Shown here: piece by piece, positions 417 through 19,868 of the stretch
Layout: each line of letters opens with the position of its first letter
Position numbering within the stretch: position 1 is the first letter of the stretch
Origin: Paracoccaceae bacterium
GTDB taxonomy: Bacteria > Pseudomonadota > Alphaproteobacteria > Rhodobacterales > Rhodobacteraceae
Assembly (NCBI GenBank): GCA_023260655.1
Contig: JALQUU010000020.1
Location: 1-43,135 of the forward strand
DNA length: 43,135 nucleotides
Direction of reading: 5' to 3'
The notes under the pieces: model-generated
Told to the model about the DNA's origin: nothing
Seen by the model: the letters and a program-made list of their open reading frames with translations, nothing else
Databases searched by the model: none
Made by a program: the position numbers and the translations under genes

Positions 417-929
417 ATGACCTTTACGCGCGTACCAAAGATATGTGTCACCCTGACTGCCTTTGCCGCTCTTGCCGCTTGCGGTGGTCGCTCGGAAGGC
501 TCCAACGATCGGTTTATTCCGGGCGATGCAAAGGCCTATATGGAGCGCTCAGACGTTGGCAATCCAATTGAAAAAACAGATCGGAACAATTCGATCTGGG
601 ACGTTTTCAAGAAAACGAGCAGCGATACCGAAGTTGCGGTCAACAAATACCTCTGGAGCGCGTCACTCGAAGTCCTGAACTTCCTGCCGATCCAGTTGGT
701 TGATCCCTTCTCCGGCGTTATCGTCACGGGCTACGGCACCCCGCCCGACGGTAACCGCGCCTATCGCGCAACGATTTACGTGAAAGATCCCGCGCTTGAT
801 GCCCGCTCGCTCGTGGTTGCAATGCAAACGCGCGGCGGTGGTTCGGTCGCTGCAGGCACCCAGCGCGCCATCGAAGACGCCATTCTGAGCCGCGCCCGCC
901 AGCTTCGGATCGCAGACAAGAAACTCTGA
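417..929 (+). CDS. DUF3576 family lipoprotein
   Basis: A 170-residue protein of unknown function. It starts with a lipoprotein signal: a hydrophobic segment followed by lipobox LAAC with the lipidated Cys at residue 22, so the mature protein should be anchored in a membrane facing the periplasm. The rest fits DUF3576 proteins, which alphaproteobacteria often encode beside leuS, lptE and holA, as here (convergent with that operon). The frame stays open upstream to 261, but start 417 is chosen because it puts the signal sequence at the N-terminus. No catalytic motif is visible. The family recognition is from memory of the sequence and the neighbourhood. Confidence 0.8.
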   Translation: MTFTRVPKICVTLTAFAALAACGGRSEGSNDRFIPGDAKAYMERSDVGNPIEKTDRNNSIWDVFKKTSSDTEVAVNKYLWSASLEVLNFLPIQLVDPFSGVIVTGYGTPPDGNRAYRATIYVKDPALDARSLVVAMQTRGGGSVAAGTQRAIEDAILSRARQLRIADKKL

Positions 930-948
930 TCTGGTCTGAACCGCAAAA

Positions 949-973
949 AGCCCCGCCAAGCGGGGCTTTTTTA
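949..973. terminator. Bidirectional rho-independent terminator
   Basis: The stem AGCCCCGC / GCGGGGCT has a 3-base loop at 949-967. It is preceded by a run of A and followed by a run of T, so it can terminate both the DUF3576 gene (+) and the leuS-lptE-holA operon (-). The holA stop codon at 971-973 lies within the T run, so the hairpin begins immediately after holA. Confidence 0.9.
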
Positions 974-1993
974 TTTGCGTGTCATCGCGAGGCGGATGAG
1001 CAACCGCTCCACCAAAGCCATTGCCGGAGCGGTCTGGCCAGCCGAACGCAAAGCAAGATCGGTTTCGAGGATCTGGGTCAGCGCATTTTCCAGCGCCCCC
1101 GCCCCCCATTCCTTGGCCTGCCGGATCATCCGGTCGCGCCGCGGCCCGAAAACCGGCGGTCGCATCCGCTGGAACCCCGCCATCGGCCCTTCCGGATCGG
1201 CAGCCCCGGCATGCAACGCCCGAAAATGCCGCGCCACCATGATAAGAAGCGTCACAGGTGCCACGCCCTGCGCACTCAAACGCTGCAACAGCGGTCCCAA
1301 AGCCCGCGAATTGCGCTCGGCAACCGCATGAAGCGCTTCGTCAATCTCGGTATCCACCGTGGCCGGAGCCACCGCTTCAATATCCGCCGCCAAAATCGGC
1401 GCGGGATCGTTCAGCTTATAGAGGGCGAGTTTTTCAATCGTCTGTCGGAAATCCCCCGGCGAAAGCTCGCGCCCCAAAGCCAGCAAATCGTTCATCACAT
1501 CCGGCGGAGCCTCTTTCAGTCCGGCCCGCGCCAATTCCGCCGCAATCGACTCGCGCGTCGGCGGGTCATCGTAAAGCGCCGCCGCCGCAGCCACCCGATG
1601 CCCCTCGAAAAGCTTTCTCAGCTTGGAAGAGGCCTTCAACTCCCCTGCCGTTGCGATGATCTGAGCATCGCCCTCGCGCCATTCCGAAAGGGCAATCGCC
1701 ATCACATCGGTCAAACCATCCGTCGCATCTTCCACGAAAACAGCGCGCGGGCCGGGAAAAAACGAGATCGCCTTGACCGCATCCAGAAGCGCCGCGCCAT
1801 CTTTCCGCAAATCCGAAGCCGGAAGCCGCGTCAGGCGCATTTCCTCTTCGCCTTTCGGCCCGAGGATATTGGCGAGGATTTCCTGCCGCTTCATTGCCAC
1901 GCGCATCGGATCGGCCCCGAAGATCAACACCGCCGGAACCGAAGGATCAGGGCGCGCGAAAAGCTTCGCGGCGGCGGGTCCGTTCAGTTTCAT
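971..1993 (-). CDS. holA: DNA polymerase III subunit delta
   Basis: A 340-residue protein, the usual length for the delta subunit of the clamp-loader complex, which opens the beta sliding clamp during DNA replication. The N-terminal part (residues about 20-140) has the divergent AAA+ layout of HolA, including the phrase VLIFGADP in the degenerate nucleotide-binding region. The C-terminal third is helical, consistent with the collar domain. Its ATG overlaps the lptE stop codon by four bases (ATGA), implying translational coupling. It is the last gene of leuS-lptE-holA, ending at the terminator at 949-973. The lptE-holA pairing is conserved in many proteobacteria. Confidence 0.92.
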   Translation of the reverse strand: MKLNGPAAAKLFARPDPSVPAVLIFGADPMRVAMKRQEILANILGPKGEEEMRLTRLPASDLRKDGAALLDAVKAISFFPGPRAVFVEDATDGLTDVMAIALSEWREGDAQIIATAGELKASSKLRKLFEGHRVAAAAALYDDPPTRESIAAELARAGLKEAPPDVMNDLLALGRELSPGDFRQTIEKLALYKLNDPAPILAADIEAVAPATVDTEIDEALHAVAERNSRALGPLLQRLSAQGVAPVTLLIMVARHFRALHAGAADPEGPMAGFQRMRPPVFGPRRDRMIRQAKEWGAGALENALTQILETDLALRSAGQTAPAMALVERLLIRLAMTRK

Positions 1994-2478
1994 GCCGGAA
2001 CGCGCGGGGAAAGCGCCAGAAGTTGCACGATGATCTGGTCTGCCAGCATCGTGGCCAGCCGTTCGCGCGCATCACGCGTTGCCGCGAGCGTCGCAACCGT
2101 CGATCCCGTCGTCGAATAGCCTGCGAAATTACTGGCCGTATCGCTGCCCAGAACCGCCCCCGTCGCCAGATCACGCAGTGCCCAAGTGGCTTCACCCACC
2201 ACATTATAGCGTTCGGTCACGTTGGCCGAGGTCAGCGCCAGCCGCTCTTCGGTAAAATCGAGGCTGTAAGACAGGCCAAACCGCGCCGCATCGCCCTGGC
2301 CTAACCGCTCTTCGATCCGGCGGGTGAGCAAATAGCTGTCGCGCGTATCGGGCGTATCCACCACAATCGCAACCAACAGCTTTTGCCCGCCGCCATTCGG
2401 CCCGTAGGCGGGCGTGAAACCGCAGCCCGCGAGGGCTACGGCACTAAGTAGAAACGTGCGTCTGTTAGACGACCACAT
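1990..2478 (-). CDS. lptE: LPS-assembly lipoprotein LptE
   Basis: A 162-residue lipoprotein. LptE is the outer-membrane plug of the LptD translocon that inserts lipopolysaccharide into the outer leaflet. The start at 2478 gives a signal sequence with an arginine pair ([15 protein letters not shown]) and lipobox LAGC with Cys19; a longer frame from 2523 would bury this signal. The mature start GFTPAYG is typical of LptE proteins (the G-C-G-F-x-P pattern). The gene begins 14 bases inside the 3' end of leuS and its stop overlaps the holA start, so the three genes are tightly packed. Sequence similarity in this family is low; the call rests on lipobox, G-F-x-P and position. Confidence 0.87.
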
Positions 2479-5032
2479 TGACGATCCGCCCCGGCACAAC
2501 GATAACTTTCTTTGGCGTCGCACCTTCCAGTGCTTTCACCACAGCATCGTTCGAGAGCGCGAGCTTTTCAACCTCGGCCGGGGGCATATCGGCAGGAACC
2601 ACGATTTCCGCTTTCCGTTTGCCGTTGATCTGAATGGGCAGCGTCAGGCTTTCATCCTTCAGCATTGCCGGATCGGCCTTCGGCCACGATGCCGCCGCAC
2701 AAAGCCCTTCACCGCCCAGAAGCGCCCAAAGCTCTTCCGCGATATGCGGCGTCATCGGTGCCATCAACTGCGCCAAAGTGCGCGCCGCCACCTTACGTGC
2801 CGTGCCACCGGCCTGCGTTTTCTGCAGCGTATTGGTTAACGCATAGAGCTTCGCGATAGACGCGTTGAAACCGAAGCTCTCAAGCCCTTTCGTCACATCG
2901 TCGATGGTCTTGTGCATCGCGCGGAGCAACTCGTCATCGCCCGCCGCCGTGCCGTCCGCCATCTCGGCGATTTCCGCACAAATACGGAACACGCGCGCGA
3001 GGTGCTTCGCGGTGGCATCCGCACCAGCGGCCGTCCATTCCACATCACGCTCGGGCGGGCTGTCGGAAAGCACAAACCACCGCGCGGTATCCGCGCCATA
3101 GCCCGTCACGATCGACACCGGGTCCACCACGTTCTTCTTGGACTTCGACATCTTCGCCGAAGGAATGATCTCGAGCTTCTCGCCCGTCGCCTTCACCGTC
3201 TGGGTTTCACGATCAATGTCTTCCGGCAGGTGATACACAGGGCGGCCATTCGCATCGCGCGTCTGGTAAATCTCGTGCGTCACCATCCCTTGCGTGAAGA
3301 GCGCATTGAACGGCTCGCGCGCTTTCTCGGGCAGGTGCCCCGTAAGGTGCATCGCGCGGGCAAAGAAACGCGAATAGAGAAGGTGCAAAATCGCGTGCTC
3401 GATGCCGCCGATATACTGGTCGACGTTCATCCAGTATTCCGCATCCGCTGCCACGGTTGGCGTATCGGCATGGGGCGAGGTGAAGCGCGCGAAATACCAC
3501 GAGGAATCCACGAAGGTATCCATCGTATCGGTTTCCCGCTTCGAGGCCGCACCGCAATTCGGGCAAGCGCAATCACGCCACGTCGGGTGGCGGTCAAGCG
3601 GGTTCCCGGGCACATCGAAGGTCACGTCATCGGGCAAGCGAACCGGAAGGTTCTCTTTCTTCTCCGGCACCACGCCGCAAGTCTCGCAATGCACCACCGG
3701 AATCGGGCAGCCCCAATAGCGCTGGCGCGAAAGGCCCCAGTCACGCAGGCGGAACTTGGTCACGCCTTGGCCCACACCGCGCGCCTCACAGAAATCAATA
3801 GCCGCATCCACGGCTTCGTTTCCGTTCTGCACTTCGGCACCGGCAAACCCACGAATATAGCGCACCGCATCGGTTTTCGGCGGCACGAAAGCGGTCTTGC
3901 CGTTCTCGGCTCGGGTATGGCCCTCTTCGCCAACCGCAGGCACGAACACATCCTGCACCGGCAGGCCGTATTTGCGGGCGAAATCGATATCGCGCTGGTC
4001 ATGCGCAGGGCAGCCGAAAATCGCGCCCGTGCCGTAATCCATCAGAATGAAGTTCGCGATCCAGACCGGAAGTTCCCAATCCGGATTGAACGGATGGCGC
4101 ACCTTGAGGCCCGTGTCGAAGCCAAGCTTCTCGGCGGTTTCAATCGCTTCTTCCGTCGTGCCGCCCTTACGCGCTTCCGCACAGAACTCGGCCACCTTCG
4201 GGTCCTGCCGCTCCAGCGCCTTCGCCAAGGGGTGATCCGGCGAAATCCCCACGAAAGACGCGCCCATCAGCGTGTCGGGCCGCGTGGTATACACCTCGAT
4301 CCGGTCAAACCCATGCGCCTCTTCGGTCATGCCGAAGGCGAACTGCAACCCGCGCGATTTGCCGATCCAGTTCGCCTGCATTAGCTTCACTTTCGCAGGC
4401 CAGTTGTCGAGCCCGTCAAGCGCCGACAAAAGATCGTCCGACATATCGGAAATCTTGAAGAACCACTGCGTCAGCTCGCGGCGTTCCACATCCGCACCCG
4501 AGCGCCAGCCCTTGCCGTCAATCACCTGCTCGTTGGCAAGCACGGTCATATCCACCGGATCCCAGTTCACCACGGCGTTCTTGCGGTAAACGAGGCCCTT
4601 ATCCAGCATGTCGAGGAAAAGCGCCTGCTGCTGGCCGTAATACTCGGGGTCGCAAGTTGCAAACTCGCGCGACCAGTCAATCGACAGGCCCAAAGGCTTC
4701 ATCTGCCCGCGCATGTCCGCGATATTGCCGTAGGTCCAGTCCTTCGGATGCCCGCCCGAGGCCATCGCCGCGTTTTCCGCAGGCATCCCGAACGCATCCC
4801 ACCCCATCGGGTGCAGCACGTTGAAACCGTTGGCGATCTTGTAACGCGCGATCACGTCACCCATCGTGTAGTTCCGCACGTGGCCCATGTGGATGCGGCC
4901 CGACGGATAGGGGAACATCTCCAGCACGTAATACTTCGGCTTGTCGGCAGAACGGGTGGCGCGGAACAATCCGACCTCATCCCAGGCTGTTTGCCATTTT
5001 GCTTCGATTTCGGCGGCGGAATAGCGCGACAT
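2465..5032 (-). CDS. leuS: Leucyl-tRNA synthetase
   Basis: An 855-residue class Ia aminoacyl-tRNA synthetase that charges tRNA-Leu with leucine. Visible hallmarks are the HIGH-type motif HMGH (residues 48-51, in [15 protein letters not shown]) and KMSKS near residue 625. Between them lies the large CP1 editing domain, which includes a TTRPDT motif used to hydrolyse mischarged tRNA. A CxxC...CxNC pattern around residues 445-495 fits the zinc-binding insert of bacterial LeuS. The start has a GGGGA site nine bases upstream. It is the first gene of the leuS-lptE-holA operon and diverges from the glycosyltransferase at 5172. Confidence 0.98.
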
Positions 5033-5171
5033 GGGCAGTGATCCCCTTTGGTTTGCGCGGTGTGATATTGCCTTCCCGCGCTCGGGTCCAGACAGTCCAC
5101 AGGCGAAATCGGCCTATGGGCAGCAGGTTTTCGCGCTGTATAAGGTGAAAAACAGTGGGTACAGGCGTTTC

Positions 5172-6428
5172 ATGAACATTCTTTTTATCCATCAGAACTT
5201 TCCGGGGCAGTTCAAACACCTCGCCCCCGCTCTGGTGCAAGCCGGCCACCGCTGTGTCTCGCTCACGCTCCGCGTGAAAGAACCGCAGATTTGGAACGGT
5301 GTTCAGCTGATTCCCTATGCGATCAAACGCCCCCAAGGCAAAGGCGTACACCCTTGGCTCGTCGATACCGAAACCAAGGTGATCCACGCCGAAGCCTGCT
5401 GGCGCGCCGCCCTCGATCTGAAAGCCAAAGGCTTCACCCCCGATCTCATCGTCGGCCATCACGGCTGGGGCGAGCCGATGTTCCTGCGCGATGTCTGGCC
5501 CAATGCCCGCATCGGTCTTTACTGCGAACTTTATCACCGCACCGATGACGGCCACATGGGCTTCGACCCCGAATTCCAGCCCGTCGTCACCCCCGACCAG
5601 TTCCTCCGCATCCGGATGAAGAACCTCAACAACCTGATGCACCTGCCCCTCCTCGACGCGGGCATCAGCCCCACCCATTTCCAGGCCGATACCTTCCCCG
5701 CCCCCTTCCGCGAGAAAATCAGCGTCATCCATGACGGTATCGACACCGATATGGTGAAAGCCAACCTCGATGTTCGCTTCGCCACCGAAACCCGCGAACT
5801 CACGCGCCAAGACGAGGTCATCACCTTCGTCAACCGCAACCTCGAACCCTACCGCGGCTACCACGTCTTCATGCGCGCCCTGCCGCGCCTCCTCAAGGAA
5901 CGCCCCAAGGCCGAAGTGCTGATCGTCGGCGGCGACGAGGTGAGCTACGGTGCCAAACCGCCGGGCGACAAAAGCTGGAAACAGATCTTCATCGACGAAG
6001 TCCGCGGCCAGATCTCCGACGCCGACTGGGCCCGCGTCCATTTCCTCGGTCGCATCCCCTACGACCGCTTCCTCGCACTCCTGCAAATCTCGCGGGTGCA
6101 CGTCTATCTTACTTATCCCTTCGTGCTCTCGTGGTCCTTCCTCGAAGCCATGGCCTCCGAGGCCGCCATCGTCGCCTCCGACACCGCCCCGGTGCGCGAA
6201 GCCATCACCGATGGCAAAACCGGCCTCCTCGTCGATTTCTTCAACCGCGACGCGCTGGTCGAAAAAATCTGCGCCACGCTGGAAGATGCCGAACTCCGCA
6301 AGGAAATGGGCCGCGCCGCGCGCGAACATGTGGTCAAAACCTACGACCTCAAACGCCACTGCCTGCCCGCGCAGATGCAATGGATCGAAAACCTCGCCCG
6401 CCTCGAACCCGGCAAAGCCTCGGACTAA
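5172..6428 (+). CDS. Glycosyltransferase family 4 protein
   Basis: A 418-residue GT-B fold glycosyltransferase. The N-terminus MNILFIHQNFPGQF is the first strand and glycine-rich loop of the acceptor domain; the donor-sugar domain runs from about residue 215 (FVNRNLEPYRG) to 390. The family 4 signature region is present as PFVLSWSFLEAMASE, but the first Glu of the usual E-x7-E motif is Phe here, a variant I associate with a subgroup of these enzymes. The start at 5172 is chosen because the upstream part of the frame (from 5031) overlaps the leuS start and has no family resemblance. Sugar donor, acceptor and product (polysaccharide, glycolipid or compatible solute) cannot be told from sequence. 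It stands alone, not in a polysaccharide cluster. Confidence 0.88.
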   Translation: MNILFIHQNFPGQFKHLAPALVQAGHRCVSLTLRVKEPQIWNGVQLIPYAIKRPQGKGVHPWLVDTETKVIHAEACWRAALDLKAKGFTPDLIVGHHGWGEPMFLRDVWPNARIGLYCELYHRTDDGHMGFDPEFQPVVTPDQFLRIRMKNLNNLMHLPLLDAGISPTHFQADTFPAPFREKISVIHDGIDTDMVKANLDVRFATETRELTRQDEVITFVNRNLEPYRGYHVFMRALPRLLKERPKAEVLIVGGDEVSYGAKPPGDKSWKQIFIDEVRGQISDADWARVHFLGRIPYDRFLALLQISRVHVYLTYPFVLSWSFLEAMASEAAIVASDTAPVREAITDGKTGLLVDFFNRDALVEKICATLEDAELRKEMGRAAREHVVKTYDLKRHCLPAQMQWIENLARLEPGKASD

Positions 6429-6531
6429 CCGGATGATCCCGATGTTCCGTCAGGTTCTTCGTGCAAGGCCGCGCGCTTTTTGCTCTACCTACCCCGAACG
6501 CCAGAAAATTGGCTGAACAGGGAGTGGGACC

Positions 6532-7116
6532 ATGTATGAAGTGATCGGAAACGTCCAAAGCCGCGCCTTCCGCGTATTGTGGATGCTGGAAGAAATCGGC
6601 GAAGCCTATACGCATCTGAACGTCAAACCGCATTCGGAAGAAGCGCGCGCCGCCAATCCCTCGGGCAAGATCCCCGCGCTGCGCGTCGATGGTGAAACGC
6701 TGACCGACAGTTCTGCCATCCTCACCTATCTCGCCGACAAACACGGCCAACTCACCTTCCCCGCAGGCACCATCGAGCGCGCCAAGCAAGACAGCCTCAC
6801 CTATATGGTGCTCGACGAGTTGGACGCCGTCCTCTGGACCGCCGCCCGCCACTCCTTCATCCTCCCCGAAGACAAACGCGTCTCGGGTGTCAAGGAGAGC
6901 CTCAACTGGGAATTCCAGCGCAACATCAAGCGCCTGTCCGAGTGCCTGCAAGGCCCCTACCTGATGGGCGAAACCTTCACCATCGCCGACATCATCGCCA
7001 CCCATTGCCTCAACTGGGCCTATGCGGCGAAATTCCCGATCGAAGACGAAAAGCTCCTCGCCTACGCAAAATCCATGCGCAACCGCGACGCGTTCAAGCG
7101 CGCAGCGGGCAAGTAA
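6532..7116 (+). CDS. Glutathione S-transferase family protein
   Basis: A 194-residue cytosolic GST. Residues 1-75 form the thioredoxin-like domain that binds glutathione; the signature NPSGKIPAL (cis-Pro) is followed by LTDSSAIL, whose Asp-Ser contacts the gamma-glutamyl group. Residues 85-190 form the helical domain, with the conserved FTIADI motif of the N-capping box (S/T-x-x-D). A strong ribosome site (GGGAG) lies seven bases before the ATG. No partner gene indicates a substrate, so conjugation, peroxidase or disulfide-reduction roles are all open. The upstream 100 bases show no clear promoter. Confidence 0.9.
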   Translation: MYEVIGNVQSRAFRVLWMLEEIGEAYTHLNVKPHSEEARAANPSGKIPALRVDGETLTDSSAILTYLADKHGQLTFPAGTIERAKQDSLTYMVLDELDAVLWTAARHSFILPEDKRVSGVKESLNWEFQRNIKRLSECLQGPYLMGETFTIADIIATHCLNWAYAAKFPIEDEKLLAYAKSMRNRDAFKRAAGK

Positions 7117-7140
7117 CACCTTTCCCAAGCGCCGCGCTTT

Positions 7141-7175
7141 CCCCGCCGTTGGATGCCTCCGGCGGGGATATTTTT
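7141..7175 (+). terminator. Hairpin with T run after the GST gene
   Basis: CCCCGCC at 7141-7147 pairs with GGCGGGG at 7161-7167 and is followed by ATATTTTT. It lies 24 bases after the GST stop and can act as a terminator. Its 3' half belongs to the short dispersed repeat at 7154-7182. Confidence 0.6.
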
Positions 7176-7182
7176 GAAATCG
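7154..7182 (-). repeat. Short dispersed repeat, family 2, copy 1
   Basis: Read on the minus strand this 29-base stretch matches 14861-14889 at 27 of 29 positions; the only differences are two adjacent bases. The core is AATATCCCCGCCGGAGGC. It lies between the GST gene and the convergent dehydrogenase gene. Confidence 0.75.
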
Positions 7183-7199
7183 AGATGATACTTTTCCGC

Positions 7200-7247
7200 T
7201 TTCATATTGGCGGAAATATCCCGGAGGTCTGGGGGCAGAGCCCCCAG
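7200..7247 (-). repeat. Hairpin repeat, family 1, copy 1
   Basis: Read on the minus strand, an 8-bp stem (CTGGGGGC / GCCCCCAG, loop TCT) is followed by ACCTCCGGGATATTT and CCGCCAATATGAAA. It matches 43 of 48 positions of the copy at 9725-9772, which has the opposite orientation. The stem begins three bases after the stop codon of the dehydrogenase gene that ends at 7250, so it may also end transcription of that gene. Confidence 0.85.
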
Positions 7248-7249
7248 TC

Positions 7250-9697
7250 TTAGCTCCGCGTCTTGGCGCTCTCCGGATCATAGAGCGGTTTCGATGACGC
7301 CGTCACCGCAACCCGGCGGCCCGCGACATCGACCGACCAGTCGGATGCGAGGAGCGCGTCAAGGGTTTCGCCCTTGCACGGCACATATCCCAAGCCGACA
7401 GCGCCCCCCAACCAATGCCCGTAGGCGCCTGAGGAAAGGTGGCCCACGATTTTGCCGTTCCGCAGGATCGGCTCGTTATGGTAGAACATCGCCTCCGGAT
7501 CCTTGGCCAGGAATTGCAGGAGGCGCTTTTCGAGGCCTTGTTCCTTCTTGCGAAGCACCGCGTCGCGGCCGATGAAGTCGGGCTTTTTCAAGCCCACAGC
7601 AAAGCCGAGGCCCGCTTCCAGCACATGGTCTTCGCAGGTGATATCATGGCCGAAGTGGCGGTAGGCTTTCTCGGAGCGGGCGCAGTCCATCATATGCATA
7701 CCGCCAAGCTTGAGGCCCATGCTCTGGCCCGCTTCCCACAGCGTGTCGAAGGCATGCAGCGCCATGTCGGAGCCCACATAAAGCTCCCAGCCAAGCTCGC
7801 CCACGTAAGAAACGCGGTGAGCCCGGGCGAGGCCGAGGCCGAGTTCGATGTCACGCGCTTGGCCAAAGGGGTGGGTGGCCGTCGAGAAATCGTCGGGGCT
7901 GACAAGCGCCATCAAGTGGCGCGCTTTCGGGCCCATGACGGCCAGCGTGCCTTCTGCGGAAGTGATATCTGTCACCACCACATGGCGCTCGCCGATATGG
8001 CGCTGTAGGTAGGTCTGATCCGCAAGCCGCGTGGCCGCCGGTGTGACCACCAGATAGGCGGTTTCGGACATCCGTGTAACCGTCACATCCGCCTCAATGC
8101 CGCCGCGTTTATTCAGGAACTGGGTGTAGACGATCCGCCCCGGTTCCACATCCATCTCGGCACCGCAGACATGGTTCAGGAAAGCGCAGGCATCGCGGCC
8201 TTCGACGCGGAGTTTACCGAAGGAGGACATGTCGTACATCACCACGCCCGTGCGTAGCGCATGCACTTCTTCGCGGGTATTCTCGAACCACGACTGTTTG
8301 AACCAGCTTGATTGGTAGGAGGTGTCCTGCCCCGGTTTGGCGTACCAGTTGGCGCGTTCCCAGCCGGAAAGTTCACCGAAAACTGCGCCATTGGCCGCGA
8401 GGCGATCATGGAAAGGCGTGCGCCGTACGCCACGGGCCGTGGCCTTCTGGCGGTAGGGGAAGTGATCGGCGTAAAGAAGCCCCAGCGTTTCCGACACGCG
8501 TTCTTGCAAGTAGCGGCGGTTCTTCTGGAAGGATTGGGCGCGCGCGATATCGACATCGCCCAAATCGAAGGGCTTCTCGCCGTCTTCCATCCATTGCGCC
8601 AGCGCCATGCCGGCGCCTCCCGCCGATTGGATGCCGATAGAGTTGAAACCAGCTGCCACCCAGACATTTTCCATGCCCGGCGCCTGACCCAGAAGATAGG
8701 CGTTATCCGGTGTGAAGCTTTCAGGGCCGTTGAAGAAGGTGTGGATCCCCGCCTCGCCGAGCATCGGCATGCGGTGGATGGCCTTTTCGAGAATCGGTTC
8801 GAAATGGTCGAAATCTTCGGGGATCTGGTCGAACTCGAAATCCTCGGAGATGCCCTTCATCCCCCAAGGCTTCGATTTCGGCTCGAAAGCCCCAAGCATC
8901 ATCTTGCCCGCATCTTCCTTGTAATAGGCGCATTCATCCGGCACGCGGAGCACCGGAAGCTGGCTCAGGCCCGCGATCGGTTCGGAAACGATGTAGAAGT
9001 GCTCGCAGGCATGGAGCGGCACGGTGGTGCCCAGCATGACGCCCAGATCACGCCCCCACATACCGCCGCAATTGACGACGTTCTCGCAGGCGATCTCGCC
9101 GTGGGAGCCGTCTTCGGCCTGCCATTTGACGCCCGTGATACGGTCTCCCTGCCGGGTAACTCCCGTAACCTTCGTGCGTTCGGCCACCACGGCACCGCGC
9201 ATCGTGGCGCCTTTCGCCATGGCGCGGGCGATGTTGCCGGGATCGCCCTGACCATCCGTGGGAAGCCAGACACCGCCCGTGACGCCATCGATGTTGAGAT
9301 GCGGGTAGCGCGACTTGATCTCGGTGGGCGAAAGCTCTTCCACCGGCACCCCGAAAGCCCGCGCCATAGCCGCGTTGCGGCGCAGCTCTTCGAGGCGTTC
9401 AGCGGTCAAAGCCGCCGAAATAGAGCCGACTTGGCGGAAACCTGTGGCCACACCCGTTTCGGCTTCGAGGCCCGTGTAAAGCTCGGCCGAGTAATGCGCG
9501 AGCTTGGTCATATTGGCCGAGGCGCGCAGCTGGCCGATCAGGCCTGCCGCGTGCCACGTGGTGCCGGAGGTGAGTTGCTTGCGTTCGAGCAGCACCACGT
9601 CTTTCCAGCCGAGCTTGGTGAGGTGGTAGGCCACGGAGCAGCCGACAACGCCGCCTCCGATGATGACGACGCGGGCAGTGCTGGGGATCTTTGACAT
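7250..9697 (-). CDS. FAD-dependent oxidoreductase / GcvT fusion (dimethylglycine/sarcosine dehydrogenase family)
   Basis: An 815-residue two-part enzyme. Residues 1-370 are a DAO-type FAD domain: dinucleotide-binding GGGVVG at 14-19, Glu38 for ribose binding, and TTWHAAG with His49, the position that carries covalently bound FAD in DMGDH and SARDH. The middle (about 375-430) matches the linker FAO_M domain. The C-terminal half (about 430-800) is GcvT-like and in this family binds tetrahydrofolate, capturing the formaldehyde released from N-methyl groups as 5,10-methylene-THF. The start at 9697 places the FAD motif at the N-terminus; the longer frame to 9943 runs through a repeat. A 76-base gap holding a hairpin repeat separates it from the methyltransferase upstream. 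Substrate (dimethylglycine, sarcosine or another N-methyl amine) is inferred from the family. Confidence 0.88.
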
Positions 9698-9724
9698 GGC
9701 GGCGGTCTCTTGGGTTGGCGTGGG

Positions 9725-9772
9725 CCGGGGGCTCTGCCCCCGGACCCCCGGGATATTTGGGCCAATATGAAA
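9725..9772 (+). repeat. Hairpin repeat, family 1, copy 2
   Basis: The stem CCGGGGGC / GCCCCCGG with loop TCT (9725-9743) is followed by ACCCCCGGGATATTTGGGCC and AATATGAAA. It sits in the 76-base gap between the methyltransferase stop (9774) and the dehydrogenase start (9697). It is the inverted counterpart of 7200-7247. The outermost-but-one stem pair is C-G here and T-A in copy 1, so pairing is kept although both bases changed. Confidence 0.85.
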
Positions 9773-9773
9773 T

Positions 9774-10670
9774 TCAGACGATGGTATGACCTGCCGCACG
9801 GATGCGGCGGGCGAGGGCTTCGATATGGGCGGGGCTGACTTCACAGCAGCCGCCCACGATGGTGGCGCCCTGACCGATCCAGCCCATGGCGAAATCGGCA
9901 TAGTCTTCGGGGCCGAGATCCTTGCGGGCTTCGAGGGCGTCAACTGTGGGCGCAGCTTTCAGGAATTCCGCGCTGATCTTGGTGAAGCCATTTGCATAGG
10001 CACCGAAGGGCAGGCCGAAAGAGGCGAGGATTGGCAGGCCAGCGGCGATGGCTTCGGGGCGCGAGCAGTTGAGGAGCACGGCTTCCGGTGCGAGGAGTTT
10101 CAGGAGAGGTGCCAGACCGGAGAGCGCTTCGCCCGAACGAAGGCGCGTGCCATCCTCGTCATCGACCGTGACCGACAGCCATGTGGGGAGGCCAGAGGCG
10201 AGCGCCGCGATGAGCGCGCCTTCGGCTTGGGCAAGACCTGCGACGGTTTCGATAAGGAGAAGATCGACCTTCCCCTTCATCTCAGCGATCACCTCGGCAA
10301 AGAGCGGCACTGCTTCGGCCGGGTCGGTGGCGAGATCGGGGCGGTAGGAGGCGCCGAGCGGGCCTAAGGCACCTGCTACACGGCCCGAACCATGCGCTTT
10401 GCGCGCGGCATCGGCCTCGTCGAGCGCGGTGGCGATCAGGCTCTCAATGCGGTCTTCGATTCCGTTCCGCACCAACCTGTCGCGGTGCAACGCATAGGTG
10501 TTGGCGGTGGCGATAGTGGCACCCGCCTTGAAGTGATCAAGGTGCACCGTGCGCACCACTTCGGGCGCTTCCATCATCACCGAGGTGGACCAGAGATTGG
10601 TTGGCGGCTTGCCGTAGCGGGTGACGATTTCCTGGCCCACAGAACCGTCGAGGAGGGTGATCTCGGTCAT
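9774..10670 (-). CDS. Homocysteine S-methyltransferase family protein (betaine-homocysteine type candidate)
   Basis: A 298-residue zinc-dependent TIM-barrel methyltransferase. The zinc ligands of the family are visible: Cys202 in LLNCSRPE and the pair Cys275-Cys276 in VGGCCEVSP. The N-terminal LLDGSVGQE is the usual first strand and loop. Members move a methyl group from betaine, S-methylmethionine or similar donors to homocysteine, giving methionine. The gene starts inside the stop codon of the upstream dehydrogenase (ATGA overlap), so the two are co-translated. That context favours a glycine betaine donor, whose product dimethylglycine would feed the neighbouring enzymes, but an S-methylmethionine enzyme cannot be excluded. 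Confidence 0.85.
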
Positions 10671-13108
10671 GCGCGGATCCTTTCATTGGCCGCGTCCCAG
10701 ACAGGGCCATCGCCCATCACGCTTGCCTTCACACGTTCACCATAAATCTCGACTTCGAGCGTCTGGCCTACCTGAGCCAGATCGCTACGGATCATCGCGA
10801 GCGAGAGCGAGGCGTTCACGCGGTGCCCCCAATAGCCCGAGGTGGTTTCACCAACGATCTGGCCTTCGTGCCAGATCGTCGACATGTAAGGCGCATCGCA
10901 ATCGCGCGCCTCCACCTTGAGCACCGTGAAGCGCTTCTTCGGGCCGCGCGCCTTTTCGGCTTCGAGCGCGGCTTTACCGGGGAATTCCTTCGACCAGTCG
11001 ATGAAGCGCTCAAGGCCCGATTCAAGGAGCGTGTAATCCGTCGAAAGATCGCCTTTCCACGCCCGATAGGCCTTCTCGATCCGGAGGCTGTTGAGCGCCC
11101 ACATTCCCACGAGTTTCACACCCGCTTCACGCAGCGCATCCCAGATCGCGGGCGCATCTGCCGGGGACATATGGATTTCCCAGCCCAACTCGCCTGCGAA
11201 AGACACGCGCACCAGCGTTACCGCACGGCCCAAGAGCGTGACGCCCTCCAGCACCGACAGCCACGAGCGGGACAATTCGGCATCCGTGAGCGGCGCGAGG
11301 ATCTCGCGCGCTTTCGGGCCGGTTACGATCAAGCATTCCACCTGATCGGAGTGGTCCGACACGGTGATCCCCTCGGGCGCCTTGCGAGAAAGCACCTCGC
11401 CATCATGCCACTGCGCCACACCAGCGGTGATGAGGCCCACTTCTTCATCCGAATGCACCATCACGGTCATCTCGGTCAGCACACGGCCACGGCTATCGGG
11501 GAAATAGCACAGCCCGATCCGCCCCGGCTTCGGCAGGCGCGACGCGGTGAGGCTATCGACATAGGCCTTCGCCCCTTGCCCCGACACTTTGAGCCGCGTG
11601 AAGCCCGGAATAGCGATCATCCCGCAGGTATCGCGGACGGCGGCGCATTCCTCGGCCACGCGGGGTGCCCACGGGCCTTGGCGCTCCCACGTCTGGGTTG
11701 CTTCCCACGAGGTGTCGTCGCCTTTGGCCGCATACCAGTTGGGGCGTTCCCAACCGTTATAGGCCCCGAATTGCGCGCCTGCGTCTTGGAAGCGGGAATG
11801 CAGCGCCGAGAGGCGGCGATCCTTGCCCGCGGGCCAGCGCGCATGCGGGAAGTGCATCGCGTATTCATGGCCGTAGACTTCCATACCGGTCTCGATGCAG
11901 TAATCGCGGTCGGTGTATCCGGTGTAGCGGCGCGGGTCACAGGCCCACATATCCCATTCGGTCTGGCCTTCGGTGATCCACTCCGCCAGCACCTTGCCCG
12001 CACCGCCCGCCTGCGCGATGCCGAAGGTGAACACGCACGCCTCGAAAGCGTTCGGCACACCCGGCATCGGGCCGATCAGCGGCAAACCATCGGGCGCATA
12101 GGGGATCGGGCCGTTGATCACCTTCGAAACGCCCGCCTTGCCCAGAAGCGGCACGCGCGCCAGCGCATCCTCGATATACCACTCAAGCCGCTCCAGATCG
12201 TCGGGATAGAGCTGGAACGAGAAGTCCTCCGGCATCGGATCGTTAGGCTGCACCCAATGCGCCTTACAGTTCCGCTCATAGGGGCCGAGGTTAAAGCCGT
12301 TCTTCTCCTGACGGAGGTAATAGGAACTATCGACGTCGCGCAGAAGCGGCAGCTTATGTCCCAATGATGCCGACCAGTCGCGCACCTCGTCCACTTCTTC
12401 GAACAGAAGATACTGGTGGCTCATCACCATCATCGGCACGGTCCGCCCACCATAGGGCTTGAACCACTCGCCCACGCGCTGGGCGTAATAGCCGCCCGCG
12501 TTCACCACGTATTCGCAGCGGATATCGCCCTGATCGGTGTGCACGATCCACTCGCCATTCTCGCGGCTTACCCCCGTGGCGGGGCAGAAGCGCAGGATCG
12601 TCGCCCCCATCTGCCGCGCACCTTTGGCCAAGGCCTGCGTCAGCTGCGCGGGGTCAATATCGCCATCGTTCGGGTCATAAAGCGCGCCCGCCAGATCATG
12701 CGTTTCGAGGAAGGGATACCGCCCCTTGATCTCGTCCACGCCCAGAATGTCGATATCCATCCCCTGATAGCGCCCCATCCCCTTGGCGCGCTGGAATTCC
12801 TGCATCCGCTCCTTGGAATGCGCGAGCCGGATCGACCCTGTTACGTGGTAATTCATCGGATAATCGACTTCCGCCGCCAATCCGCGATAAAGCTCCGTCG
12901 AATAGCGCTGCATGTTCATGATCGACCACGAGGTCGAGAACGTCGGCACGTTACCCGCCGCATGCCACGTCGAGCCGGCAGTCAGCTCGTTCTTCTCCAG
13001 AAGCACGCAATCGGTCCAGCCAGCCTTGGCCAGATGATAGAGCGATGAAACACCAACCGCCCCGCCCCCAATAATCACCACCCGCGCCGTTGTCGGAAAC
13101 TCGGCCAT
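10667..13108 (-). CDS. Second FAD-dependent oxidoreductase / GcvT fusion (dimethylglycine/sarcosine dehydrogenase family)
   Basis: An 813-residue paralogue of the enzyme at 7250-9697 with the same architecture: FAD motif GGGAVG (14-19), STWHAAG with His49 as the expected covalent FAD site, a linker domain around 375-430, and a GcvT-like folate domain to the C-terminus ending in a GCV_T_C barrel. The first 50 residues of the two are nearly superimposable, but the later parts differ clearly, so this is not a recent duplication and different substrates are likely. A GGGAG ribosome site precedes the ATG. It lies 12 bases downstream of the LysE-type gene and overlaps the methyltransferase by four bases, placing it in the middle of the operon. 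Confidence 0.88.
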   Translation of the reverse strand: MAEFPTTARVVIIGGGAVGVSSLYHLAKAGWTDCVLLEKNELTAGSTWHAAGNVPTFSTSWSIMNMQRYSTELYRGLAAEVDYPMNYHVTGSIRLAHSKERMQEFQRAKGMGRYQGMDIDILGVDEIKGRYPFLETHDLAGALYDPNDGDIDPAQLTQALAKGARQMGATILRFCPATGVSRENGEWIVHTDQGDIRCEYVVNAGGYYAQRVGEWFKPYGGRTVPMMVMSHQYLLFEEVDEVRDWSASLGHKLPLLRDVDSSYYLRQEKNGFNLGPYERNCKAHWVQPNDPMPEDFSFQLYPDDLERLEWYIEDALARVPLLGKAGVSKVINGPIPYAPDGLPLIGPMPGVPNAFEACVFTFGIAQAGGAGKVLAEWITEGQTEWDMWACDPRRYTGYTDRDYCIETGMEVYGHEYAMHFPHARWPAGKDRRLSALHSRFQDAGAQFGAYNGWERPNWYAAKGDDTSWEATQTWERQGPWAPRVAEECAAVRDTCGMIAIPGFTRLKVSGQGAKAYVDSLTASRLPKPGRIGLCYFPDSRGRVLTEMTVMVHSDEEVGLITAGVAQWHDGEVLSRKAPEGITVSDHSDQVECLIVTGPKAREILAPLTDAELSRSWLSVLEGVTLLGRAVTLVRVSFAGELGWEIHMSPADAPAIWDALREAGVKLVGMWALNSLRIEKAYRAWKGDLSTDYTLLESGLERFIDWSKEFPGKAALEAEKARGPKKRFTVLKVEARDCDAPYMSTIWHEGQIVGETTSGYWGHRVNASLSLAMIRSDLAQVGQTLEVEIYGERVKASVMGDGPVWDAANERIRA

Positions 13109-13120
13109 GACTTCTCTCCC

Positions 13121-13741
13121 TCAGTCGAAAACGATACGGGCCGCAAGCCCGCCGAAAATCACCGCAGAAATGCGGTTCAGAAGCCGGGCTTTCGCGGCTA
13201 GAACGCCGCCGAAAATCCCCGCCAGAGCGCCGTAAGCGCCCGTGATAAAAAAGCCCGTCACGATGAAGATCGCGCCAAGCACCAGCGTTTGCTGCCAAAC
13301 CGGCCCCGCACCGGGGGTCAGGAACTGCGGCAGGAACGCCATGATAAAGATCGCCACCTTCGGATTGAGCGCGTTGGTGACAAACCCTTTACGGATCGCG
13401 CGCAGCGCCGATCCGGTGCCCTTGCCCGCCTCCGGCGGCGGCGCGTTCCAGGCTTGCACCGCCAACCACAGAAGGTAAGCCGCCCCCGCATAGCGGATCG
13501 CGTCCATCGCATGGGGCACCGCCATAAGCGCGGCAGATAACCCAACTGTCGCCAGCCCCACATGCAGAACAGAGCCCAAAGCCACCCCGCCCGAAGCCGC
13601 CACACCCGCACGCCATCCGCCCGAAAGCCCGCAGGCCGTGGCAAACATCACATCCGCGCCGGGTGTCAGGTTGAGCACAATCCCCGCCGCCATGAAGGCA
13701 AGGATCGTCGCGGGGTCCATGGCAAAAAGCGTCTCTAACAT
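13121..13741 (-). CDS. LysE/RhtB family translocator
   Basis: A 206-residue inner-membrane protein with about six hydrophobic segments. It has the family signature NLTPGADVMF near residue 24 and the mid-protein motif KGFVTNALNPKVAIFIMAFLPQF. LysE/RhtB permeases export amino acids and related small molecules, driven by the proton gradient. It sits ten bases downstream of the regulator and twelve bases upstream of the dehydrogenase, so it probably belongs to the same transcript. Context suggests export of an amino acid (for example glycine, sarcosine or methionine) made by the cluster; substrate choice is inference. Confidence 0.9.
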   Translation of the reverse strand: MLETLFAMDPATILAFMAAGIVLNLTPGADVMFATACGLSGGWRAGVAASGGVALGSVLHVGLATVGLSAALMAVPHAMDAIRYAGAAYLLWLAVQAWNAPPPEAGKGTGSALRAIRKGFVTNALNPKVAIFIMAFLPQFLTPGAGPVWQQTLVLGAIFIVTGFFITGAYGALAGIFGGVLAAKARLLNRISAVIFGGLAARIVFD

Positions 13742-13751
13742 AGCGGAACTC

Positions 13752-14315
13752 TCAGTAAACAGGCGGGGCGATCACCCAGATCACCACAGCAGGAACGTCA
13801 TGCGGATTGGCCCAGTCATAAGGCTCGCCCTTGATGCGGAAACTGTCGCCCTCGCCCACGGAAAACCACGTGCCATTGATGGCCACATCAAGCCGCCCAG
13901 ACACCACATAGCCCACTTCCTGCGTCGGCCTCTGCTGCGGGCCGTTGAGCCGCGAACCCGGGGCGAAAGTGGAATGCACCACTTCAAAATGATCGGTCAG
14001 ATCGGGCGAAAGCAACTCCTCGACGAGCCCCGCCACACGGCTCCCCAAAGGCCGCCGCATACCCGCCCGCACCACACGCCCCTCTTCTTCCACAGGGGCC
14101 CGCGCCTTGCCGAAAAGCATCGAGATCGGCACGCCCAGCGCCTTGGCCATCGCCCGCAGATCGGCAATCGACGGCTGGGAAAGGTCGCGCTCCACTTGAC
14201 TGACCCAGCCCACCGAGCGGCCCAGCGCTTCCGCCAATGCTTGCAACGTCAGCCCGCGCGCCCGGCGCAAGGCGCGCAGGTCGGCTCCTAAAGAAGCGGG
14301 GGGTTCGTGGCGCAT
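13752..14315 (-). CDS. XRE-family regulator with C-terminal cupin domain
   Basis: A 187-residue transcription factor. Residues about 8-66 form a helix-turn-helix of the XRE type (LGADLRALRRARGLTLQALA ... SVGWVSQVERDLSQPS). Residues about 110-180 form a cupin barrel, which in this family binds a small effector (RPTQEVGYVVSGRLDVAING). HTH-cupin proteins commonly control amine, amino-acid or osmolyte catabolism genes next to them. It heads the operon that continues into the LysE exporter and the demethylation enzymes. Two perfect inverted repeats lie just upstream (14322-14362 and 14363-14393) and are good candidates for its own operators. Confidence 0.9.
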   Translation of the reverse strand: MRHEPPASLGADLRALRRARGLTLQALAEALGRSVGWVSQVERDLSQPSIADLRAMAKALGVPISMLFGKARAPVEEEGRVVRAGMRRPLGSRVAGLVEELLSPDLTDHFEVVHSTFAPGSRLNGPQQRPTQEVGYVVSGRLDVAINGTWFSVGEGDSFRIKGEPYDWANPHDVPAVVIWVIAPPVY

Positions 14316-14321
14316 AGCGAC

Positions 14322-14362
14322 TCGCGTGAAAAATCCGTCTCGAATTTCACACTCTCACGCGA
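14322..14362. promoter_or_regulatory. Inverted repeat, candidate operator 1 of the XRE-cupin gene
   Basis: TCGCGTGA at 14322-14329 is the exact inverse of TCACGCGA at 14355-14362, separated by 25 bases. It lies 7 bases upstream of the XRE-cupin start. It abuts a second inverted repeat with no base between them. Confidence 0.55.
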
Positions 14363-14393
14363 CTCATGAAAAATCAAATAAAATTTTCATGAG
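14363..14393. promoter_or_regulatory. Inverted repeat, candidate operator 2
   Basis: CTCATGAAAA at 14363-14372 is the exact inverse of TTTTCATGAG at 14384-14393, with an AT-only-but-one 11-base spacer. AT-rich spacing and position 48-78 bases before the XRE-cupin start fit a promoter-operator region. It could also serve the divergent DCC gene at 14465. Confidence 0.55.
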
Positions 14394-14464
14394 CCGATCA
14401 TCCAAACCCGCGCTCCACCCGTATGAAGAAACACCGCCAAAAATCCGCCCGGAACAGCACGCCC

Positions 14465-14869
14465 ATGACCGCTCCCGAACCAACACAACTCACCGTTTAT
14501 TTTGACGGAGCCTGCCCGCTCTGCCGCTCCGAAATCGGTCTCTATTCCAGGTGTAATGGCGCTGAAGCAATCCACTTCGTCGATGTCTCGGACGCAACCC
14601 AAGCTTTAGGCCACAACCTCACCCGCCCCGACGCCCTCCGCCGCTTCCACGTCCGCCTCTCCGATGGAACACTCGTCTCCGGAGCCGCTGGCTTCACGGC
14701 CCTCTGGGCACACCTGCCCGGCTGGCGCTGGCTCGCCCACGCAGCCAAACTCCCCAGAATAGAGCCGCTTCTCGAACGGCTTTACCGCGGCTTCCTAGTG
14801 ATCCGGCCCACACTCTCCCGGCTCGCGGCACGCGCGTCAAAGGCACCGCCGAACCGCTCTCGATTTTGA
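14465..14869 (+). CDS. DCC-family thiol-disulfide protein (DUF393)
   Basis: A 134-residue protein with the family signature D-G-x-C-P-x-C near the N-terminus: YFDGACPLCRSE with Asp14, Cys17 and Cys20. The paired cysteines resemble a thioredoxin-type redox site, and the family is named for the Asp-Cys-Cys motif; physiological substrates are unknown. The C-terminal half is rich in Trp, Leu and Arg (GWRWLAHAAKLP), usual for the group. The start at 14465 is chosen by position of the motif; an in-frame ATG at 14423 is also possible and neither has a strong ribosome site. The last two codons and the stop fall inside a dispersed repeat (14861-14889). Confidence 0.82.
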   Translation: MTAPEPTQLTVYFDGACPLCRSEIGLYSRCNGAEAIHFVDVSDATQALGHNLTRPDALRRFHVRLSDGTLVSGAAGFTALWAHLPGWRWLAHAAKLPRIEPLLERLYRGFLVIRPTLSRLAARASKAPPNRSRF

Positions 14870-14889
14870 AAATATCCCCGCCGGAGGCA
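14861..14889 (+). repeat. Short dispersed repeat, family 2, copy 2
   Basis: This copy matches the inverse of 7154-7182 at 27 of 29 positions. It overlaps the last codons of the DCC gene and is followed by a small hairpin (CGCC-GAA-GGCG) that runs to the end of the convergent SDHAF4-like gene. Confidence 0.75.
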
Positions 14890-14903
14890 CGCCGAAGGCG
14901 TTC

Positions 14904-15107
14904 TCAAAAGTCGACGGCAATGCCCTTCTTTTCCCAGTCGCCATAGCGCACAGGCTCCGGCCCGTCGCGGCCCCCAAGCTCGGTGGGCATCTCCATCGCT
15001 TTCGCTTGGCGACGGCGCTCCTCGGCTTCGGCAAGGGCGCGCAAAGCCGCAGGCGGCAAGTCGCGCTTCGGCTCGTCTGCGGTATCGGCTGTGACGTCGT
15101 CTGTCAT
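14904..15107 (-). CDS. DUF1674 / SDHAF4-like protein
   Basis: A 67-residue soluble protein. The N-terminal half is acidic and then helical and charged (AEAEERRRQAK); the C-terminus PVRYGDWEKKGIAVDF is the hallmark of DUF1674, the bacterial relatives of SDHAF4. SDHAF4 binds the flavinylated catalytic subunit of succinate dehydrogenase and aids assembly of complex II in mitochondria; a like role in alphaproteobacteria is expected from homology. The start at 15107 is selected because the upstream frame to 15263 overlaps the divergent rsmB gene. It is a single gene with convergent DCC and divergent rsmB neighbours. Confidence 0.88.
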   Translation of the reverse strand: MTDDVTADTADEPKRDLPPAALRALAEAEERRRQAKAMEMPTELGGRDGPEPVRYGDWEKKGIAVDF

Positions 15108-15163
15108 GGCATTCCTTCCCGGCTTTGGTCCTGATATACGCCCCTCGTCATAAGGAGCAAGCC

Positions 15164-16423
15164 ATGCCCGCCCCCAAATCCGCCTCCGAAACACCCCGCA
15201 TGGCCGCCGCGCGCCTCTTGGGCGCAGTTCTGGGCGACGGGCGGATGCTCTCAGAAGAACCACTCGGCAGCCTCGCCGCCCCCGACCGCGCCCGCGCGCA
15301 ACGGCTCGCCTCTGAAACCCTCCGCAACCTCTCCCGCGCCGATCACGTGCTCGCCGCTTTCTTGCGCAAACCCCCGCCCCTTGCGGTGCAAAACGTGCTC
15401 CGCATCGCCACGGTCGAGCTTTGTTCGGGCGGTGATGCCCATGGCGTCGTCAACGATGCCGTCAACCGGATCGCGCGGATGAAGAACGGGCAGGCGCTCA
15501 AGGGGCTGGCCAACGCGGTGCTGCGCAAGGTTGCCACCGAAGGCACTGTACTCTGGGCCGAAGGGCCCCATGCCTATCTGGCCGACTGGATCCGCAAACC
15601 CTTGCTCGCCGCATGGGGCAAGGAAGCCGTCCGCGCCATGGAAACCACCTTCAGCGCCACACCGCCTCTCGATCTCACTGCCAAAACCGATCCCGCCGCC
15701 CTCGCAACCTCACTCGGCGGCCAGCTTCTGCCCACAGGCTCCGTCCGCCTCCCCGCAGGCCAACAAGTCTCTACTCTGCCCGGATTCGAGACGGGTGCCT
15801 TCTGGGTGCAGGACGCCGCCGCCGCCCTCCCCGCCCGCCTCCTCGCCCCACAAAAAGGCGAACGCGTGCTGGACATCTGCGCCGCCCCCGGTGGGAAAAC
15901 CATGCAACTCGCCACGATGGGTGCCGATGTCACCGCGCTCGATATCTCCCCCCGCCGCATGGAACGCGTCCGCGAAAACCTCGCGCGCACCGACCTCACT
16001 GCCCGACTCTTCACGGGCGACGCGCTTGATCATCAAGGCCAGTATAACGCGATCCTCCTCGACGCGCCCTGCTCCGCCACAGGCACGCTGCGCCGCCACC
16101 CCGATCTGCCCCATGTCCGCGCGCCCGAAGCCATCGCCGATCTCGCCGCGCTCCAGTCGCAACTGATCGACCACGCGCTCACCCTCCTTGCCCCCGGCGG
16201 GCGCCTCGTCTTCTGCACCTGCTCGCTCATGCCCAAGGAAGGCGAAGCCCAAGCCCGCGCCATGCTCACCCGCCACCCTTCGCTCAAAGTGGACCGTCCC
16301 GCGCTCGAAGGCGTGCCCGCCGAGTGGATCACCCAAGAAGGCGGCCTTCGTACCCGCCCCGACTATTGGCCCGATCAGGGCGGCCTCGATGGCTTCTACA
16401 TGATCCGCGTCACACGCCCCTGA
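15164..16423 (+). CDS. rsmB: 16S rRNA (cytosine-C5) methyltransferase RsmB/NOP family
   Basis: A 419-residue enzyme that methylates a cytosine of 16S rRNA with S-adenosylmethionine. Residues 1-140 are a NusB-like RNA-binding domain (ARLLGAVLGDGRML ... VNDAVNRIAR). The methyltransferase domain follows: motif I LDICAAPGGKT, motif IV LDAPCSATG with Cys303, and motif VI FCTCSLMPKEGE with Cys351/Cys353; one of each cysteine pair forms the transient link to the base. A strong AAGGAG ribosome site nine bases upstream fixes the start at 15164. It leads the rsmB-heparinase-purH gene order often seen in Rhodobacterales. The exact target base is assigned by family only. Confidence 0.92.
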   Translation: MPAPKSASETPRMAAARLLGAVLGDGRMLSEEPLGSLAAPDRARAQRLASETLRNLSRADHVLAAFLRKPPPLAVQNVLRIATVELCSGGDAHGVVNDAVNRIARMKNGQALKGLANAVLRKVATEGTVLWAEGPHAYLADWIRKPLLAAWGKEAVRAMETTFSATPPLDLTAKTDPAALATSLGGQLLPTGSVRLPAGQQVSTLPGFETGAFWVQDAAAALPARLLAPQKGERVLDICAAPGGKTMQLATMGADVTALDISPRRMERVRENLARTDLTARLFTGDALDHQGQYNAILLDAPCSATGTLRRHPDLPHVRAPEAIADLAALQSQLIDHALTLLAPGGRLVFCTCSLMPKEGEAQARAMLTRHPSLKVDRPALEGVPAEWITQEGGLRTRPDYWPDQGGLDGFYMIRVTRP

Positions 16424-18258: not shown

Positions 18259-18284
18259 CAACGGCACCTGCCCGGGGGACCTCG

Positions 18285-19868
<1,584 letters not shown>

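Follow-up and report, generated by a model that had tools for sequence, protein, structure and literature searches.

The window analyzed here, a stretch of 43,135 nucleotides from a Paracoccaceae bacterium (contig C122 of a 2.67-Mb, 265-contig, 77.5%-complete genome), contains two closely similar sequences of 48 bp in inverted orientation that flank exactly one gene, the second dehydrogenase gene of an operon (Table 1). A sequence-only reading had correctly noticed this enclosure and had named a dispersed extragenic repeat, a transcription terminator cassette or the boundaries of a moved gene as possible explanations. Which of these applies, and what could such an element do? We consider it rather probable that both are copies of a 3'-end element specific to Rhodobacteraceae, which acts as intrinsic terminator when read in the sense ending in TATTT (T-sense), with an antisense role for copy 2 and with a downstream box that may be read or may support pausing.

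Table 1. Genes and repeat elements of the locus, with positions in the window.
Feature	Position	Strand	Context and parts	Basis
Copy 1	7200-7247	-	Putative terminator sense on -; just past stop of second dehydrogenase gene (7250-9697, -); stem-loop 7247-7229; distal C-run 7227-7223 with a T in place of one C; core GGGATATTT 7222-7214; box CCAATATGAAA 7210-7200	Sequence; covariance-model score 60.3 bits (copy is in training set); orthologous copy in L017
Copy 2	9725-9772	+	Putative terminator sense on +, antisense to operon; in gap from bhmT-like stop (9774) to start of second dehydrogenase gene (9697); stem-loop 9725-9743; distal C-run 9745-9749; core GGGATATTT 9750-9758; box CCAATATGAAA 9762-9772	Sequence; covariance-model score 62.3 bits (copy is in training set); junction orientation shared with relatives
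Second dehydrogenase gene	7250-9697	-	Enclosed by copies 1 and 2	ORF and translation
bhmT-like gene	9774-10670	-	Precedes second dehydrogenase gene in operon	ORF
Third family copy	28918-28997	-	Core at 28934-28944	Model score 52.2 bits
Sister-type element	about 7141-7189	+	Hairpin 7141-7167; core 7165-7173; box AAATCGAGA 7177-7185	Inverted repeat I2; weak model score 14.3 bits
Second sister-type copy	14854-14908	-	I2 partner arm 14858-14889	Weak model score 18.2 bits, E=0.002

Direct comparison of 7200-7247 (-) with 9725-9772 (+) yields 43 identical positions out of 48, as had been claimed, with differences at repeat positions 13, 14, 26, 31 and 47. Positions 31 and 47 pair with each other, and their T-A in copy 1 and C-G in copy 2 indeed represent a compensatory stem change. 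The repeat finder reports the arms 7200-7245 and 9727-9772 (91% complementary) as the longest inverted repeat of the window, and about 2e-10 chance pairs of this kind are expected there from base composition only, an estimate that leaves out dinucleotide structure and the self-complementarity of the hairpin. With up to three mismatches the 22-mer TTCATATTGGCNNAAATATCCC is found twice in the window versus 0.01 times in shuffled sequences; the short hairpin core at the same tolerance occurs eight times versus 3.85 expected, which is not clearly above chance as 6 of 100 shuffles reach eight. Rfam families gave no match in the window at gathering score. The two copies are not a private pair since the window has a third copy and two copies of a sister type.

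The suggestion of a dispersed extragenic repeat could be confirmed by a covariance model search of the whole genome. Built from 27 short-type copies, which match by construction, the model finds at least 94 matches at E<=0.1 in the own genome; this is a lower bound, with 150 of 1579 first-look candidates scored in a genome that is 77.5% complete. The result is many copies together with covariation and not the few copies without covariation that would have spoken against a selected structure. In the own genome, 117 matches were counted for the 11-base core AAATATCCYSG and 16 (eight per strand) for the exact hairpin core GGGGGCAGAGCCCCC, with none for the reversed control in either case. In a set of 142 genomes from the class, a 12-base core is matched 86 times in the own genome and at most seven times in any other, the sole other family member drawn having three matches. 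Within the family (198 genomes, one per genus) AAATATCCCGGGG is present in 114 genomes with up to 87 matches each (reversed control 3 in total) and its exact form is absent from 84; the sister core AAATACTCCGGGG is found in 88 genomes (reversed control 7 matches) and has no match in the own genome. Literature searches, including exact core strings, returned no description of the element within a coverage that leaves aside most subscription journals, and there the core strings led only to work on Streptococcus pyogenes.

Regarding the position relative to genes, 100 of the 117 core matches of the own genome were classified with codon-model gene calls made in this analysis. Forty-one lie between convergent genes, 23 after a gene of the same sense and six between divergent genes, and 21 have only their box side at a gene end, with the terminator sense pointing into the 3' end of that gene. 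Seven are inside predicted ORFs (several look like chance matches in coding DNA) and two at edges. A retrained gene caller gives 39 convergent, 23 same-sense, 23 box-side-only, 6 divergent, 6 inside ORFs and 2 at edges, of 99. On the hairpin side the median distance from stop codon to core amounts to 49.5 nt in 64 own-genome copies; where a gene end faces the copy, the box frequently starts within a few bases of the stop codon of that gene, and at some gene ends two elements face each other with their tails. Gene calls for genome G343 were unusable and were dropped (13 of 23 copies fell “inside” spurious ORFs). In intergenic regions of at least 45 bp, pooled from 443 kb of the own genome including the window, 400 kb of G345 and 400 kb of G269, the element occurs in 15 of 94 regions between convergent genes, in 23 of 385 tandem regions and in 2 of 162 divergent ones; for convergent versus divergent regions p is 0.0001 in G269, 0.11 in G345 and 0.19 in the own genome, which taken alone gives no significant contrast. 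The top-ranked 8-mer downstream of stop codons is GGATATTT in the own genome as well as in G269, and GGAGTATT in Ruegeria pomeroyi. The own-genome classes and the intergenic counts together support a preference for gene 3' ends, about which the sequence-only reading had asked.

In T-sense the element is composed of Gn-loop-Cn, then either a short linker or another hairpin, the second C-run, GGGATATTT, 2-3 nt and the box of about 10 nt, and GGGATATTT or close variants recur across genera. In the sister type GCCTCCGGCGGGGATATTT comes after a hairpin that varies, and the boxes are of the same kinds. Of 187 elements, 15 could not be parsed for this anatomy. In the own genome the two pairs beside the G-run are Watson-Crick in 27 and 22 of 36 distinct flank pairs (shuffled means 15.3 and 13.9, with 0 and 3 of 2000 shuffles reaching these values), and in other genomes in 43 and 39 of 75 (shuffled 23.3 and 22.8). 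The third pair outwards gives no signal in the own genome (6/36, shuffled mean 6.9) and is not above shuffles in the other genomes either. All 162 cells of the 27-copy alignment pair, and 13 are changed on both sides versus 4.5 in shuffles, all of them at one pair. The earlier assumption that base pairing is under selection is supported by this covariation beyond shuffles together with the double changes.

A further regularity concerns the two C-runs, whose lengths are the same in 45 of 57 copies of the own genome (shuffled mean 17.7; 0/2000), 22 of 24 copies in G343 (7.7; 0/2000), 12 of 12 in G339 (6.2; 1/2000), 8 of 9 in G340 (4.1; 22/2000), 7 of 7 in G345 (2.7; 7/2000) and 25 of 35 in the remaining genomes (8.5; 0/2000). 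The match is above shuffles in five of six genomes; in G269 it is found in 23 of 25 copies and is equalled by shuffles since nearly all runs there are five bases long. In short elements a T stands before the second C-run in 21 of 24 copies with an A before the G-run versus 2 of 40 copies without this A, a coupling whose p-value is not to be taken at face value because the copies share ancestry. It is not seen in the long type.

These features have to be compared with intrinsic terminators, above all the U-poor ones in GC-rich bacteria. Common to both are a GC-rich stem-loop soon past the stop codon and a short U-containing tail. The stem-loop of the element covaries, lies past stop codons and is rare between divergent genes in the pooled sample. 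It differs from known terminators by the recurrent GGGATATTT, by the second C-run that is length-matched to the stem and by a conserved box past the tail. The tail AUAUUU has four U in six nt and is preceded by GGG; the sister type at 7141 is closer to canonical. According to TERMITe (PMC12207403), Streptomyces terminators have 3-4 U in the first 10 nt. The spacing is not canonical since at least about 6 nt separate the end of the strong local stem-loop from GGGATATTT. A terminator scan of positions 1-20000 of the window lists neither copy 1 nor copy 2, and its 21 terminators represent no overall excess over shuffles (19.4). A bidirectional terminator was also taken into account. TERMITe describes upstream A-tracts as marks of bidirectional terminators (PMC12207403). 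In the own genome a U-tract on both sides of the hairpin is not a general feature: U counts in 8 nt average 2.4 on the opposite side of 14 box-side-only copies versus 3.3 in the other two main classes (no background was computed), and an opposite-side U-run is present in single copies, e.g. L119, L140 and L141. The bidirectional form was rejected for this reason.

At the locus itself the gene order on the minus strand is dehydrogenase 1, bhmT-like gene, dehydrogenase 2. The product of 9774-10670 is presumably of the homocysteine methyltransferase type, and a homologue of this gene is adjacent to the dehydrogenase in 56 of 80 loci compared. Within the genome collection, the enclosed gene has its closest relatives in MAGs labelled Rhodobacteraceae or Paracoccus; those listed from plasmids are mostly annotated as FAD-dependent oxidoreductase. 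Leaving aside the 24 loci without adjacent bhmT or ending too soon, 20 of the 56 loci with bhmT directly upstream match the element pattern (a regular expression) in the orientation of copy 2 and none in the opposite one, 16 have room without a match and 20 have less than 60 bp of room. Thus, 20 of the 36 relatives with room carry a junction match, including L057, which resembles chance by eye. Relatives with the gene at this site and no repeats, which had been named as evidence against the repeats, were found in part: this situation applies to 36 of the 56 loci (20 of them with the little room mentioned) and the other 20 match. By eye, L022, L034 and L036 have core and box at the junction and no strong hairpin, and several unmatched junctions with room look degenerate (e.g. 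L056, L059, L064 and Marivita-type loci). Marivita-type junctions (L026, L031, L038, L043, L046 and L047) show the core [TG]GC[AG]TATTT and a purine-rich box near AAAAAGAAGAAGC and, as judged by eye from unfolded sequence, no strong GC hairpin, so core and box may be kept without a hairpin. Downstream of dehydrogenase 2 the 80 loci have a T-sense match only in five, an opposite match only in two, both in two and none in 69, two being too short. From the junction counts compared with these downstream counts, the site of copy 2 appears to be older and copy 1 more restricted.

The view that a transferred gene cassette is bounded by the two copies can hardly be maintained on this basis. Exactly one gene is enclosed by inverted copies, as such a cassette would have it, but in L017, the closest relative, both copies flank the same gene (the contig starts at copy 2, with the bhmT side out of view), junction matches of one orientation are found in diverse genera, and a third copy and sister types lie nearby. 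The moved-gene boundary was consequently rejected on synteny.

Next to copy 1 the convergent genes 6532-7116 (+) and 7250-9697 (-) end in facing elements, one of each type (7141-7247), and core matches that face each other at a distance of 40-60 bp are also present at other places of the own genome. The sister-type element at 7141 has its terminator sense for the plus-strand gene; it is listed by the terminator scan with stem 7146-7165 and its orthologue in L017 carries box AAAGAGAAA.

The box of approximately 10 bp tends to be genome-specific. Mean best box identity is 0.68-0.99 within genomes, 0.50-0.71 between genomes and 0.43 for random sequences, where these comparisons as well as the following counts of box kinds omit elements without GC-rich DNA upstream. 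The within-genome contrast is clear for G343 (0.99), G341 (0.82) and G339 (0.81) and weak for G345 (0.68 versus up to 0.65), and there is none between the own genome and its sister (0.71 in both). The pair G343/G269 reaches 0.88 between genomes. G343 has CCCAAAGAA in 22 of 23 boxes and G339 has AAAGAGAA in 28 and CCAATATGA in seven of 37. The 23 boxes of G340 comprise GCAAGAAGA (11), GCAATGAGA (4), other GCAA forms (2) and six others, and the 93 of the own genome comprise AAAGCGARA (31), CCAATATGA (20), AAAGCAAGA (10), AAATCGAGA (6), AAAGAGAAA (6) and 20 others. Box dialects exist between genomes, with more than one kind in several of them. Hairpin and TATTT tail persist at many loci despite a differing core remainder and box, for instance TTGAGTATTT in Roseovarius and TTGCATATTT in Marivita-type loci. 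G269 and R. pomeroyi each have two cores, GGGATATTT and GGAGTATTT, and a different box goes with each of them (few copies).

At orthologous sites the box is less conserved than the sequence on both sides of it, with the exception of the CCAATATGAA kind. Thirty-four sites were placed and five were dropped (three non-elements or chance core matches, one misplaced at a tRNA, one degenerate). In 19 pairs with G339 that are not of the CCAATATGAA kind, box identity is 77.0% (161/209) with full identity in three pairs, compared to 91.5% in the BLAST flanks, 93.2% in the 14 nt before the core and 88.4% in the 20 nt past the box (gapped); all three pairs of the CCAATATGAA kind have identical boxes. In seven pairs with G340 the values are 50.6% (39/77) for the box, 77.6% for the flanks, 73.5% before the core and 66.9% past the box (gapped), and the G340 box is GCAAGAAGA in all seven, whatever the kind in the own genome. 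Flank identities are raised by BLAST and gapped alignment, and core identity is 100% by construction since the parse required GGATATTT; the base preceding it is not the same in 2 of 29 pairs. As a cause of box likeness, gene conversion of whole elements is disfavoured by the pre-core value (93% versus 77% for the box in G339) and by the different hairpins within one genome. A box that changes faster than its surroundings and still leans to uniformity in the relative's genome would be the expected product of a co-evolving reader; the varied boxes of the own genome could also be due to loosened constraint.

How can these observations be put together? According to the reading we prefer, RNA polymerase would make the GC-rich hairpin, pause with the roughly 9-base stretch GGGAUAUUU in its active site and release the transcript. 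The dehydrogenase operon would end at copy 1. Because of its opposite sense inside the operon, copy 2 is excluded as ordinary sense terminator, and it is more likely to block antisense transcription that would enter the bhmT-like gene and/or to act as intercistronic hairpin. The box past the U-poor tail would be a recognition or pausing element that changes alongside the others of its genome, perhaps tied to a putative factor. T-sense termination is supported by position, covariation and the recurrence of hairpin and TATTT tail across dialects; the terminator type named by the sequence-only reading is supported by position and anatomy, and it is the ending of transcripts itself that we infer. 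The plain version of an intrinsic terminator is opposed by the U-poor, offset tail, by the box-side-only copies and by the hairpin-poor junction copies, and it does not explain the box. The best reading is thus probably a fast, partly concerted downstream box on an element of intrinsic-terminator type. A bolder form would have the box read by a co-evolving factor, with most terminator sites changing dialect together, and the second C-run docking on the G-run of the stem. We regard this combination as speculative and on the whole unlikely. The docking, either as alternative stem or as C+.G-C / U.A-U triple helix, would explain the matching C-run lengths together with the A/T coupling, and the parallel sense of this coupling would be predicted by the triple helix, not by an antiparallel alternative stem.

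Among the other explanations, a REP-like stabiliser of mRNA 3' ends is possible, although we think it doubtful: a hairpin in either orientation would guard the upstream message from 3'-5' exonucleases and termination would not be its main role. It accounts for one-sided copies at gene 3' ends in both orientations (23 versus 21), for a hairpin that can form on either strand and for copy 2 inside an operon; in the 20 relatives with little room and no match the two genes are 12-59 bp apart. However, a pure stabiliser needs neither tail nor box, and T-sense copies begin soon past the stop codon with the asymmetric GGGATATTT or close variants recurring across genera. The element shares with REP/REPIN sequences the many dispersed extragenic hairpins in both orientations near 3' ends. 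REP and REPIN carry a conserved tetranucleotide at the foot of the hairpin, and none was found in the 27-copy alignment; a further difference is that the element is present at the few orthologous sites tested. The same finding weakens the view of a selfish mobile hairpin (REPIN- or MITE-like) spreading by transposition, which is very unlikely. Many dispersed similar copies, some near-identical within one genome, would fit it, but copies of one genome share the core and have different hairpins, and 8 of 8 informative element sites of two relatives carry the element in the own genome. This test (one site degenerate, missed by the regular expression and judged by eye; three in the window) was limited to the window and to own-genome stretches not chosen for elements, as an earlier comparison was biased toward retention because most stretches came from around elements. 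Finally, the box, perhaps with the AT-rich core, could be an uptake watermark similar to the DUS or USS, with the terminator as merely permissive site. Like the DUS dialects of Neisseriaceae it is a short motif with genome-leaning variants, often at terminators, and DUS have been reported with terminators as inverted pairs (PMC3630211). We consider this highly improbable since most occurrences of the box belong to the element: of 14 CCCAAAGA in 400 kb of G269, 10 come after a hairpin with TATTT or TACTT tail, and of 8 full-length box matches in 400 kb of R. pomeroyi, 6 come after a T-rich tail and two lie in genes. Overrepresentation throughout the genome, also in genes, was not observed in these two samples, and about 100 copies in the own genome compare with thousands of DUS (PMC3630211).

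If the box is read by a factor, terminators of a large bacterial family would have a lineage-specific trans-acting partner, which to our knowledge lies outside the textbook picture of intrinsic termination. Shared core and site with the box rewritten at many sites would then represent a natural experiment for finding this partner. Even as ordinary terminators, the elements offer a motif that could help to mark transcript ends in many Rhodobacteraceae genomes; the simple terminator scan missed copies 1 and 2.

Two other repeats were encountered. One, of about 100 bp and beside elements, contains AAACGGC-GAAACGCTT as well as AAAAAGTCTATCA-CTTTTTCTCGAA strings; at one site the own genome has it and the sister genome G339 lacks it, at another site the situation is reversed (L162 vs L345; L372 vs L109), and it can be considered as candidate active MITE. 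The other is the palindrome CGTCATGACG, which is enriched downstream of stop codons in the 443-kb sample of the own genome (18 on both strands, 10 downstream regions) and near which strings such as CAAGCCATACGCTTGCCATACGCA recur, e.g. in the flanks of L150 and L355.
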